64,000 nucleotides of DNA from Rhizobium sp. SG_E_25_P2 (GTDB lineage: Bacteria > Pseudomonadota > Alphaproteobacteria > Rhizobiales > Rhizobiaceae), in assembly GCF_029892285.1 (NCBI RefSeq), contig NZ_JARXVM010000002.1:248001-312000 (forward strand), given 5' to 3'. A program made the translations under genes and the position numbers. Position 1 is the stretch's first letter, and each line of letters begins with the position of its first letter. The notes under the pieces were generated by a model that saw nothing but the letters and a program-made list of their open reading frames with translations, was not told the origin of the DNA and made no database searches. Positions 11,179-15,037 of this stretch are shown here, piece after piece.

Positions 11179-11255
11179 GATTCTATTAGCATAAACGTGC
11201 CAGCCAGCCGACGAACCTACCAGCTTACGCGCCTCGCAAAATCCCCTCAGCATTC

Positions 11256-11271
11256 TGCTATATAGAAACCG
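11256..11271 (+). promoter_or_regulatory. Candidate promoter A (TGCTATATA, extended -10)
   Basis: CTGCTATATAG at 11255-11265 matches the Rhizobiales -10 (CTATAT) with a TG extension. Two further copies of TGCTATATA occur in this element (12243, 12834), each ahead of a structured transcript. No good -35 is visible. Transcription would begin near 11271 and run into the structured RNA region. Confidence 0.45.
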
Positions 11272-11720
11272 CTCATGGCGTCATCCATGCGCGCACCATA
11301 CTGGCACCGTTTACAAGGGCGACACCGGGACTCTAGACCGGCGCCATCAGCTGGCCAGAAGCAACCGGAAGATCAGCCGACAAGCTCCCCTGAATAAGGA
11401 CGCCCCGGCGGGTTATCGCCGCCTGCCTCGGCAGGGAATGGATGCAAGAAAATGACAAGCGCACTGTGGCACTCTTCGGAGGGACACAACGCTTGGCTAC
11501 GGATCGATTGAAGGCAAGTCGGTTCGTAGTGCGCACTCTTCGGAGTGTAACCGCTTCGGTCGCAAGACCGGGATAGCGGGGCGAATATCAGGTAAGGGAA
11601 GCCGCCTGATGCAGATTGACTATCTTTAGCCCTTCACCACCTGTTGCACGGTAACAGATATCCCCCTCTGGTAAGAACACAAATGGCAGCTTCTATCTGT
11701 CTGTTCTTACCAGAGGGGGA
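11270..11720 (+). ncRNA. Candidate large structured noncoding RNA
   Basis: No protein gene fits, but short perfect stems follow one another in order. AAGCG(11457)/CGCTT(11494) encloses a CTC-TTCG-GAG hairpin. A G-U-rich stem joins TACG (11498-11501) to CGTA (11525-11528). GCACTC-TTCG-GAGTGT spans 11533-11548. CCGCT (11551) to AGCGG (11579) encloses CGGTC-GCAA-GACCG, a GNRA tetraloop. ATCAGG (11587) pairs with CCTGAT (11610), and CTGTT (11641) with AACAG (11657). A 19-bp hairpin ends the series at 11720. UUCG and GNRA loops and G-U pairs point to function as RNA. The 5' part (11310-11450) also has short helices, such as GGCG/CGCC around 11407-11419. I do not recognise a known family; large phage RNAs such as GOLLD or ROOL are only analogies. 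Confidence 0.5.
11661..11720. repeat. 19-bp perfect inverted repeat
   Basis: TCCCCCTCTGGTAAGAACA (11661-11679) is perfectly complementary to 11702-11720, with a 22-nt loop. The arms are not followed by a T-run. It could be the 3' boundary or an RNase-processed stem of the structured RNA, a replication-origin hairpin, or a protein-binding site. Confidence 0.85.
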
Positions 11721-11786
11721 AAGTCCTATTCCCGGTGGCATATGATCAGAGCAACAAACCACCGGCACCACGAAACAGGTCAAGAG

Positions 11787-11849
11787 AACGCCGCGAAGCG
11801 GCGGCAAGGCCGAAGGCCGCGCAGGCGAGCGCAGCGAGCAACAGGCGTT
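11787..11849. repeat. Hairpin array closed by AACGCC/GGCGTT
   Basis: AACGCC (11787-11792) pairs with GGCGTT (11844-11849) and encloses small GAA-loop hairpins (CCGC-GAA-GCGG at 11791-11801 and GGCC-GAA-GGCC at 11808-11818) and a repeated GCGAGC. It looks like a multibranched fold in RNA or single-stranded DNA. A short frame reading through it (11742-11924) has low-complexity Arg-rich sequence and is unlikely to be a gene. Confidence 0.6.
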
Positions 11850-12098
11850 AGTCACCACCATTTGCATCGCTTCCCAAAACCGTATGCAGCTAAGATCACC
11901 AACACGGCAATAATTGCTGTCTGACCGGACGCCGACAGTTCGACCACGTCAATGATTTTGATTGTGAGGGAATTGGTTGTTTCGTTCACAGCGCGCACCT
12001 TTCACCAAAAAGGAAGGAGCACTCTTGCGCTGCATTTAAGTAGTTAGCTCCGATTCGGTGGGGCTGTCTAGCGGTTTGCTTTATCCAATCTAGCCGCA
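11850..12098. other. Gap without recognisable gene
   Basis: AT-richer than its surroundings. I see no gene, no convincing ribosome site with an open frame, and no strong hairpin. An AAAAAGGAAGGAG purine block at 12006-12018 resembles a ribosome site but has no sensible frame behind it. Confidence 0.5.
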
Positions 12099-12240: not shown

Positions 12241-12257
12241 TTGCTATATATTCATCA
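12241..12257 (+). promoter_or_regulatory. Candidate promoter B (TTGCTATATA)
   Basis: TTGCTATATA at 12241-12250 in the context AGCCTGACCGAACTTGCTAT, closely similar to promoter C at 12832. Predicted start near 12257, directly ahead of a short hairpin-rich unit with a strong terminator. Confidence 0.55.
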
Positions 12258-12344
12258 GCAGCCGAAACGGCTTCCAACTCTTCCGGCTGCCAGACAAAGG
12301 ACGACCTGAACCCCGCGTGTGCCTTCCACGCGGGGTTTCTTTTT
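12257..12344 (+). ncRNA. Candidate small RNA of about 88 nt with intrinsic terminator
   Basis: Between promoter B and a strong terminator there is no sensible open frame. The 5' part can fold in two ways: AGCCG-AAA-CGGCT as a local hairpin, or GCAGCCG with the later CGGCTGC, so alternative conformations are possible. The 3' end is AACCCCGCGTG (12309-12319) paired with CACGCGGGGTT (12327-12337), followed by TTCTTTTT. Promoter, compact fold and terminator together support a genuine small transcript; targets and partners are unknown. Confidence 0.6.
12309..12344 (+). terminator. Rho-independent terminator of small RNA
   Basis: 11-bp GC-rich stem (12309-12319 with 12327-12337), 7-nt loop, and a T-rich tail to 12344. 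Confidence 0.85.
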
Positions 12345-12364
12345 GCCTGCCATGTCCTGAAACG

Positions 12365-12402
12365 CAAACACCCCCACTGCCGTGAAGCAATGAGGGTGTT
12401 TG
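12365..12402. repeat. 9-bp inverted repeat CAAACACCC/GGGTGTTTG
   Basis: CAAACACCC (12365-12373) and GGGTGTTTG (12394-12402) are perfectly complementary with a 20-nt loop. Possibly a second terminator acting on minus-strand transcription, or an operator. Confidence 0.55.
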
Positions 12403-12618
12403 TGGGAGAGTGCCAGCCGTAGCACGTCTGCCGTTGCGAGTATTATAATACCACATTTCAGCGCCTTGTGAATCCCCGGCTGCGAAATTTCTTGAAGGCC
12501 AAAGGTCAGTCACCGGTGCCTTAACCTACTGTATTCATTATTAAAATAGCGATTTCGGGTATTGACGCGATTCCGCAAATCAGCAAGATTCTGCCTGTCA
12601 CCAATCGGAGGGTTACAG

Positions 12619-12789
12619 ATGGATGATGTTTACGTCGCTGATGAAGATTACGCCCGGCTGCTTGACCACCTGCTTGATTGCAGGCTCGGGGAGATGCTTG
12701 CGGCTTACCGGGATGAACTGCGCAGCATGTTGACCATGGCGCTCGGGCTTCAGGCGGGGGTTTGGCCGGAGTCGTCTAAGGTCGATTAA
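12619..12789 (+). CDS. Small hypothetical protein (56 aa)
   Basis: MDDVYVADEDYARLLDHLLD and onward: an acidic, probably all-helical protein of 56 residues, family not recognised. The start is supported by GGAGGG (12607-12612) 6 nt before the ATG. An upstream TTGACG (about 12562) could be a -35. It lies in the small-gene region to the right of the tape measure gene, where phages and satellites often keep regulators, but there is no direct evidence of function. Confidence 0.6.
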   Translation: MDDVYVADEDYARLLDHLLDCRLGEMLAAYRDELRSMLTMALGLQAGVWPESSKVD

Positions 12790-12831: not shown

Positions 12832-12848
12832 TTGCTATATAGTCGGCA
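12832..12848 (+). promoter_or_regulatory. Candidate promoter C (TTGCTATATA) with flanking palindrome
   Basis: TTGCTATATA at 12832-12841, flanked by CCGA (12828-12831) and TCGG (12843-12846), which form an inverted repeat around the -10 and could be an operator. It resembles promoter B over about 35 bp, including CAGCA just downstream. It drives the structured leader and the 12942 gene. Confidence 0.55.
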
Positions 12849-12911
12849 GCAAACAGACATCACCGAATTCGAGCCGGGAAGATACCATTCCCGGCAACGG
12901 CACCTGTTTGC
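12849..12911 (+). promoter_or_regulatory. Structured 5' leader of the 12942 gene
   Basis: GCAAACAG (12849-12856) pairs perfectly with CTGTTTGC (12904-12911) and encloses a second perfect stem, CCGGGAA (12874-12880) with TTCCCGG (12888-12894). This nested fold lies between promoter C and the ribosome site (AAGGAG, 12926-12931), the position expected of a translational or antitermination control element. No known riboswitch class is recognised. Confidence 0.5.
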
Positions 12912-12941
12912 CTCATAGTCAGCAGAAGGAGTTAAGCAGCT

Positions 12942-13259
12942 ATGACTATTGTATCTGACAGCCCGGTCACCCTCTCGGCACGAGACGAAACCACGTTCGA
13001 AATCGCCGCCATCATTGATGAAATGCGACTGTCCGCCGAACCCTTCGGCACCTATGACGTTGCCAAGCGCGTCATGGAGATTTCACATGCGCATTTTCTT
13101 GCGCAACTTCAGGGCGCCCTTGAGAAAGAATTGGCGCCCATCCGCGAAATGACATCGAAACTCGCCGACCACTTCAAAGCGATCAGACAGCAGAACATCA
13201 ATCTACCGCCCGACGTGGTGAGCGGCATCAGGCGCGAATTTGGCGACAATCGCCACTGA
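12942..13259 (+). CDS. Hypothetical protein (105 aa)
   Basis: 105 residues, predominantly helical, with the segment FEIAAIIDEMRLSAEPFGTY followed by a likely coiled coil (LQGALEKELAPIREMTSKLA). Family not recognised. The ATG is preceded by AAGGAG at 12926-12931 and by a structured leader with its own promoter; a strong terminator follows 5 nt after the stop. It is therefore a single-gene unit, clearly expressed by design, with an unknown role in the element. Regulator or helper-interaction protein are possibilities without direct support. Confidence 0.65.
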   Translation: MTIVSDSPVTLSARDETTFEIAAIIDEMRLSAEPFGTYDVAKRVMEISHAHFLAQLQGALEKELAPIREMTSKLADHFKAIRQQNINLPPDVVSGIRREFGDNRH

Positions 13260-13263
13260 CAAC

Positions 13264-13293
13264 AAAGCCCGCCGATCCTCACCGGCGGGCTTT
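13264..13293. terminator. Bidirectional terminator
   Basis: AAAGCCCGCCG (13264-13274) with CGGCGGGCTTT (13283-13293), 8-nt loop, A-rich on one side and T-rich on the other. It serves the convergent 12942 gene and the protease gene, whose stop lies inside the loop region. Confidence 0.85.
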
Positions 13294-14127
13294 ATTATGT
13301 TTCCATGGCGGCATTTTAGCGTCGCCCGCTTTAACTAGCTCATTGATGGTTAGATGAACATTGCCGTCTTCTAATTCATCGAGGTCATCGAAGCCCAATT
13401 CTCTGTCGGAACCAATGCTAGTGACAAATGACAAATCAGTTTGGCCGTCAAAGCTTGTGCAATTTATTCCGACAACCCTGCCACTCGCATTGAACACCGG
13501 CCCGCCGCTCGCGCCACCGTGTATGTGGAAATCTACGCGGAAGTTTTGCCACGGCGTCATCGTGCCAATGCCACTTAGTGAGACTTCATGCACTATTCCT
13601 CGGTAGAAGCCCCCGTTTAGCCAAATTTCCCGTTTTTTTCCGTCTTCCACAATCGTGGATTCAGGAAATGCGTATGTGAAGACCGTGTCACCAACTTGGG
13701 GCAATTTTCCCGTAAGCGGTAGGCAAGGTTGACCGGCAACTTTTGCCGGCTCAACTTTAACCATACATATGTCGGCACGAGCTGACATCACACTGCGAAT
13801 AACTTGTCTTATCTCATGCGTGCCATCAGCCGATTGCTGAACGATGACGTGGCGGAAAACTTGAGCCGCTTCTTTCGCATCGGGGTCGCTTCCATCCCAA
13901 GCATAGCTCCGCTTAAGTGAAAACTTATGTTCAAAGACATGTCGCGCTGTGATCAAAATGTCTTTGGCAACGAAGAACCCTGTTCCGGTGGCTGCCCACT
14001 TGCCGTCGTCGGGGTCGATCTCAAACATTGCCACGATAGATTGACCGACGTCACCTTGCCTATTGAAATCATCAATGACTGAATACTTATCGGGCACGTC
14101 TGTCCCGTCGAGTTTCTTAAAGGCCAT
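13279..14127 (-). CDS. Trypsin-like serine protease (possible cargo/moron)
   Basis: 282 residues, no signal peptide, so probably cytoplasmic. The trypsin-like catalytic triad is visible: GTGFFVAKDILITARHVF with His63, SARADICMVKV with Asp119, and HGGASGGPVFNASG with Ser207. The protein ends with an acidic segment and lacks a PDZ domain. It is transcribed against the rest of the element and has its own flanking terminators, the usual arrangement of accessory cargo near an attachment site. Stand-alone and fused trypsin-like proteases occur in anti-phage systems, but no partner sensor gene is adjacent here, so a defence role is only a suggestion. Base composition seems AT-richer than the structural genes. 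Confidence 0.85.
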   Translation of the reverse strand: MAFKKLDGTDVPDKYSVIDDFNRQGDVGQSIVAMFEIDPDDGKWAATGTGFFVAKDILITARHVFEHKFSLKRSYAWDGSDPDAKEAAQVFRHVIVQQSADGTHEIRQVIRSVMSARADICMVKVEPAKVAGQPCLPLTGKLPQVGDTVFTYAFPESTIVEDGKKREIWLNGGFYRGIVHEVSLSGIGTMTPWQNFRVDFHIHGGASGGPVFNASGRVVGINCTSFDGQTDLSFVTSIGSDRELGFDDLDELEDGNVHLTINELVKAGDAKMPPWKHNKARR

Positions 14128-14963: not shown

Positions 14964-15037
14964 TGGCTGGGGAACCTGGATTCGAACCAGGACTAACGGA
15001 GTCAGAGTCCGTGGGTCTACCGTTAACCTATTCCCCA
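14964..15037 (-). tRNA. tRNA-Gln (anticodon CTG)
   Basis: 74 nt, CCA encoded. The acceptor stem TGGGGAA/TTCCCCA, a G discriminator, the T-loop GGTTCGAATCC and the anticodon loop CTCTGAC (anticodon CTG) are all intact. It reads CAG codons. Its 3' end points at the phage-like element, so it is the likely attachment site. Confidence 0.97.

Follow-up and report, generated by a model that had tools for sequence, protein, structure and literature searches.

The small RNA (sRNA) unit at 12241-12344 of the window, the whole 64,000-nucleotide stretch of the Rhizobium sp. SG_E_25_P2 contig that was analysed, lies in what is best explained as an integrated phage-satellite-like element of ~16.6 kb. The element reaches from C2:246345, where one copy of an att-like repeat is found upstream of the integrase, to the 3' end of a tRNA-Gln, which holds the other copy (Table 1). 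Its genes encode a portal, a fused protease-capsid protein, head-tail connectors, TerL, a tape-measure protein and a 593-aa integrase-like frame, the last judged by position and sequence alone. The element combines the integrase-like frame with a capsid and a terminase of its own, and with these genes at so small a size it resembles capsid-forming satellites (cf-PICI-like). A tape-measure protein is present, where a satellite of that kind would have no tail genes and would need a helper.

The tape-measure gene and the sRNA are separated by a large structured RNA, and a p75-like small gene follows the sRNA on the same strand. Farther downstream, 12832-13293 has the look of a complete small transcription unit, with TTGCTATATA, a leader containing inverted repeats, a 105-aa frame and a terminator. 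The 105-aa protein belongs to no known family and has no relatives in phages or viral contigs; only C-terminal remnants were found, in G007 (L040, L041). A trypsin-like protease is encoded on the minus strand near the right end of the element (window 13279-14127). The same genome holds a second related element (L043, C14:13000-24000), which has the large RNA and the p75-like gene, no recognisable sRNA, and a gene for a 391-aa protein that by eye is AIPR abortive-infection-like.

Table 1. Features of the sRNA locus and its surroundings (positions in the window).
Feature	Position	Strand	Basis
CTGCTATATA, promoter similar to that of the sRNA, ahead of the large RNA	11255-11264	+	One-mismatch copy of TTGCTATATA
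Large non-coding RNA of about 560 nt, conserved and structured; ends approximate	11265-11850	+	Conservation, hairpins; no Rfam match
Hairpin of the large RNA that covaries, with GGAAGCCG in its loop at 11597-11604	11587-11610	+	Covariation
Extended -10 promoter of the sRNA, TTGCTATATA	12241-12250	+	Sequence; GCTATA shared by all 12 rows of the family alignment
Predicted sRNA transcript, about 88 nt	12256-12343	+	Promoter and terminator positions; start site predicted from these
Hairpin 1, GCAGCCG (12258-12264) with CGGCTGC (12284-12290), 19-nt loop	12258-12290	+	Fold P 0.999; family covariation; leave-one-out match
Minor alternative hairpin, AGCCG (12260-12264) with CGGCT (12268-12272)	12260-12272	+	-5.3 kcal/mol, P 0.0005
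CGGCTTCC, sRNA loop segment complementary to the large-RNA loop	12268-12275	+	Sequence complementarity, predicted energies
Intrinsic terminator of the sRNA, 12-pair stem and T-run	12308-12344	+	Sequence and fold
Small p75-like gene that neighbours the sRNA in relatives	12619-12789	+	Profile and alignment of p75-like genes
Second TTGCTATATA, upstream of the 105-aa frame	12832-12841	+	Sequence
105-aa frame with its own terminator (13264-13293)	12942-13259	+	Open frame; terminator
17-bp att-like repeat at the tRNA-Gln 3' end, with its second copy at C2:246345-246361	14964-14980		Repeat

The promoter named in the preliminary description is borne out by the family alignment. In the whole 5.56-Mb genome TTGCTATATA occurs 3 times, against 2 for a reversed control pattern; two of the three copies are on the + strand of the element, 591 bp apart (12241 and 12832), and a one-mismatch copy is located at 11255. 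The GCTATA box of the family units is TTGCTATA in most of them. In 9 of 15 units, the window not among them, TGCA stands 17-18 nt upstream of the -10 box, and by sequence comparison TGCA and the box form a -35/-10 arrangement whose -35 element is not TTGACA. In L110 the segment TTTTGCTATACTGTCG is identical ahead of the large RNA and the sRNA. A sigma-54 promoter, with TTGC at -12 and GG at -24, was considered and rejected: the TTGC here suits -12, but by eye GG is absent at -24.

From a predicted start near 12256 to the T-run the transcript would measure 88 nt, in agreement with the length proposed earlier. The terminator described there is also present and is strong, although its stem (12308-12338, followed by CTTTTT) has 12 pairs and not 11. 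The terminator accounts for most of the fold z-score of the 104-nt segment (-3.2); shuffles of the part that precedes it fold equally well in 159 of 1000 cases. The predicted transcript contains no ATG, no Pfam family matches the 92-aa frame that overlaps it, and tblastn with a 40-aa stretch of this frame gave no convincing match, so that the translated open frame that would have spoken against an sRNA was not seen. A coding reading of the frame downstream was dropped (best tblastn E 3). Directly after the terminator there is a second hairpin (12364-12401), and a palindrome, GTATTATAATAC, at about 12440-12452 overlaps a minus-strand promoter-like site.

BLAST with the sRNA found no homologue outside its own genome and no match in phages or plasmids. 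Short scattered matches at E up to 0.1 in 69 of 394 family genomes were judged background, and an IMG/VR match (L018) is no independent case, being the genome itself at 100% identity over 12,789 bases. Since BLAST was uninformative, the search was anchored on the neighbouring genes. The tape-measure protein alignment led to 4 genome loci and 12 viral loci; an alignment of p75-like genes from eight elements led to 13 viral loci, to 23 places in 21 of the 394 family genomes and to 12 places in 11 of 337 genomes of the order (own copies included in both genome counts). The related elements found in this way are ~12-19 kb long, phage-like and located in Hyphomicrobiales, and the sRNA unit recurs among them: many p75-like genes are preceded by a GCTATA box and, 17-18 nt downstream of where the box starts, by a hairpin with a pyrimidine-rich loop, often followed by a terminator. 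The window shows the same arrangement, with the covarying stem at that spacing and the p75-like gene adjacent at 12619. No recognisable unit was found in the closest tape-measure relatives (L065, L071, L070).

Twelve units were aligned by sequence only, with misalignment and gaps in the 3' arm of row L091. Of the 64 cells of the six-pair stem 96.9% are paired, and three pairs are changed on both sides; the covariation score of the stem is 0.268, compared with 0.117 +/- 0.029 in shuffles (0 of 500 as high) and at most 0.071 in slid controls. A covariance model built from the 11 units without the window places 12241-12289 at the top of the 64 kb (22.9 bits, E=0.0036; the next-best match has E 2.3), which puts the unit beyond chance. 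The full model, for which these units were themselves the input, matches upstream of the gene in 8 of the 13 viral p75 loci, and does not report at E up to 5 the units of L068, L103 and L110, which were identified by eye and not relied on. In L150, from another family of the order and outside the model, a unit was seen by eye 227 nt upstream of the p75-like gene; it ranks first of 23 loci in the model search, but the match is weak (E 0.12). Across the 394 family genomes the model finds 8 genomes at E up to 0.1, with convincing matches only in elements, at 4 places (G000, G003 and twice in G082); the other 5 places were judged background, with no p75-like gene or element seen (frames were listed for two of the five). 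No Rfam family matches the sRNA, the 12 loci with p75-like genes give 0 gathering-level matches, and scores stay well below the gathering thresholds (P15 23.3 of 70, Pseudomon-1/ErsA 19.5 of 50, sodF 20.6 of 46). Sequence comparison supports the sRNA family, its first stem, the promoter, and the large RNA with its hairpin. The recurrence of the unit and the covarying stem agree with the original proposal of an element-encoded sRNA with promoter and terminator, and 12241-12344 is likely a member of a conserved sRNA family absent from Rfam.

The proposed conformational switch, in which AGCCG would pair either with the adjacent CGGCT or, as GCAGCCG, with the later CGGCTGC, fared differently. Both pairings are present as sequence, and the CGGCU that the short form would sequester belongs to the segment complementary to the large RNA. 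The predicted energies are however -11.0 kcal/mol for the long hairpin and -5.3 for the short one, a gap of 5.7 kcal/mol; the long stem has a pair probability of 0.999 and makes up 99.9% of the ensemble, against 0.0005 for the short stem. The pattern of competing pairings itself arises in 1.25% of shuffles and in 442 of the 9136 51-mers of the window. Because one fold dominates and the long stem alone is the family fold, the two-fold switch is not supported, and on this modelling it is highly unlikely.

The large RNA is arguably the more striking feature of the region. Its CTGCTATATA box stands 30-40 nt upstream of its conserved start in the window. BLAST located it in Brucella endophytica, at 71% over 246 nt, and in others, a profile in L094 (6.5e-49) and L150 (1.5e-26), and a pattern scan in seven contigs, further viral contigs among them (L154 and L094 are one contig, the L110 unit is present as a copy in L157, and L158 is truncated); among the other four, L153, L155, L156 and L159, a recognisable sRNA was seen in L156 only. 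The RNA contains several hairpins and matches no Rfam family. One of the hairpins has the loop CAAUGGANNCC, UAAGGGAAGCCG in the window; it is paired in 94.2% of 69 cells, shows double changes in 5 of 7 pairs, and has a covariation score of 0.517 against 0.166 (0 of 500 shuffles). A long inverted repeat, CCCCCTCTGGTAAGAACA ... TGTTCTTACCAGAGGGGG, is also present in the large RNA (window 11658-11725), with counterparts in L071, L067 and L068 in which the arms differ and complementarity is kept.

The idea that the sRNA pairs with this hairpin loop is post hoc, as it arose while L067, L110 and the window were inspected, and it concerns few and partly related sequences. The longest perfect sRNA complement to the 16-nt loop region of the large RNA is 8 nt in the window, 13 in L067, 9 in L094 and 7 in L110, compared with 4 in L068 and 5 in L150; L156, found later through the large-RNA pattern, has an 11-nt complement in its sRNA. 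A complement of 7-13 bp is thereby present in 5 of the 7 elements that hold both RNAs, and L068 and L150 are without it. In the window, L067, L094 and L156 the sRNA has its longest complement anywhere in the large RNA at this loop, and L110 covaries (GGUAUCC with GGAUACC). For six elements the complements add up to 46, where shuffles give 29.4 and 0 of 1000 are as high, and cognate pairs stand at 0.8% of 720 swapped arrangements. When seven elements are tested with a strict loop, the result is 108 of 5040 for swapped pairs and 0 of 1000 for shuffles; leaving out L067 and L156, which are related, changes these values to 8% and 2 of 500, and leaving out L110 as well changes them to 21% and 10 of 500. 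The complement motif occurs in the sRNAs of 5 of the 7 elements with a full large RNA, compared with 2 of the remaining 11 (Fisher p 0.039). Net predicted pairing energies, with the costs of opening included, range from -7.6 (window) to -11.0 kcal/mol. The position of the complementary segment varies: the window and L094 have it in loop 1, L067 and L156 in a second hairpin, and L110 in the terminator loop. The evidence for pairing is suggestive, not proof, and docking of the sRNA onto the large RNA is plausible on these comparisons. Most sRNA-bearing elements lack the large RNA, and therefore pairing with it cannot be the whole function of the sRNA.

We infer that the sRNA would be transcribed from the predicted start just upstream of the conserved hairpin, expose a pyrimidine-rich loop, stop at the intrinsic terminator and act through base pairing of the loop. 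In the window element the likeliest partner would be its own large (~560 nt) structured RNA, whose hairpin loop GGAAGCCG may form a kissing duplex with the sRNA loop CGGCUUCC. Expressed from similar promoters, the two RNAs could be a regulator and its target or two parts of one complex. As the best explanation of the locus we tentatively favour, at somewhat under even chances, an ~88-nt sRNA of a satellite element that pairs through its loop with the large RNA of the element. The broader claim of a previously undescribed two-RNA module in Hyphomicrobiales satellite-like elements, an ~560-nt RNA and an sRNA that kisses its covarying loop, with similar promoters and a regulatory or assembly role, is possible and calls for more caution still.

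A conventional trans-acting sRNA, whose anti-Shine-Dalgarno-like loop would block ribosome binding on mRNAs of the host or a helper phage and whose complement to the large RNA would be incidental, is rather unlikely, and several observations fit it: loops complementary to the Shine-Dalgarno sequence such as UUGGUUCUCC, CUCGUCCUUC and GGCUUCCAACUCUUC, the maintenance of sRNAs in elements without the large RNA, and, by sequence, the own promoter and U-tailed terminator expected of Hfq-type sRNAs. Against it, the sRNAs show no preference for the ribosome-binding site of their own p75-like gene over swapped ones (loop p 0.39, whole sRNA p 0.12; 12 sites, that of L067 placed two bases off the start codon), ribosome-binding sites in the own element offer no consistent target, and the best duplex in the whole element is like that of shuffles in 5 of 6 elements (in the window, 1 of 24 shuffles is as good). 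Two anecdotal matches were seen, of the L072 loop to AAGGACGA before a downstream gene and, by eye, of the window loop to GAAGGAGUU before the 105-aa frame. Antisense pairing with host ugpB was rejected: the matches, in 2 of 61 genomes, fall within genes resembling ugpB that belong to other genomes, the best own counterpart of that protein is 39% identical, and with up to 3 mismatches the own genome yields no more than three places besides the sRNA itself.

The unit might also be the attenuated leader of the p75 operon. In that case the promoter would fire, the terminator would stop most transcripts and antitermination would turn the operon on, as in P4 immunity. The sRNA is codirectional with the p75-like genes and close upstream, and PMC7567579 describes the regulatory RNAs of P4 and PhiR73 as complementary to gene leaders. 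Such a leader is nevertheless improbable, as by eye the p75-like gene has -35/-10-like boxes of its own, a palindrome near AAGTAAGYRCTTACTTA stands between terminator and gene in most relatives with the unit, and folding predicts no competing partner for the terminator. This palindrome, probably a repressor operator, precedes the promoter of the p75-like gene in L072, L086, L087, L089-L091, L099, L100, L108 and L156, and was not seen in the window. A DNA site (an origin, a packaging or an operator region) or a chance promoter-terminator pair with no RNA function would suit an orphan by BLAST with palindromes nearby, but the near-fixed spacing of -10 box and hairpin and the compensatory changes in the stem make it very improbable.

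Several known RNAs resemble the proposed loop-pairing sRNA in part. The alphaproteobacterial alpha-r14/NfeR1 'cuckoo' RNAs also have a hairpin with a pyrimidine-rich loop and an intrinsic terminator, and carry an anti-SD motif in the loop; they are host genes and not known to be element-borne, and the alpha-r14 model misses the sRNA, with a weak match at 13201-13297 (22.7 vs 58.8 bits). GOLLD and ROOL are, like the RNA at 11265-11850, several hundred nucleotides long, structured and found in phage-like elements, but the RNA in the window matches no Rfam family. According to PMC7567579, GOLLD and ROOL are often near tRNAs, PLE satellites and ICP1 produce abundant non-coding RNAs, and the ICP1 RNA is compared in length with GOLLD and ROOL. 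The same text describes the IIR transcript of PLE, phage satellites of Vibrio cholerae, as an abundant non-coding RNA between gene clusters; unlike the sRNA, whose proposed partner is another RNA, it is flanked by inverted repeats and runs antisense to PLE leaders. The small RNAs of P4/PhiR73 and P1/P7/N15 are also named there (PMC7567579) as acting by pairing, but are said to be complementary to gene leaders, whereas no such complementarity and no Rfam match were found here; the own-element search found no complementarity to leaders of the own operons, as a P4 CI/C4-type RNA would have. A titles-level literature search on satellite small RNAs, Rhizobiales satellites, cuckoo RNAs, P4 CI RNA and cf-PICIs, with most subscription papers outside its scope, gave no description of the sRNA or the large RNA.

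RNA regulation in phage satellites is little known beyond a few models, and a conserved, covarying sRNA makes it testable in culturable rhizobia. If the pairing is true, an sRNA acting on a large RNA of the ornate type would provide a first handle on the role of large phage RNAs.
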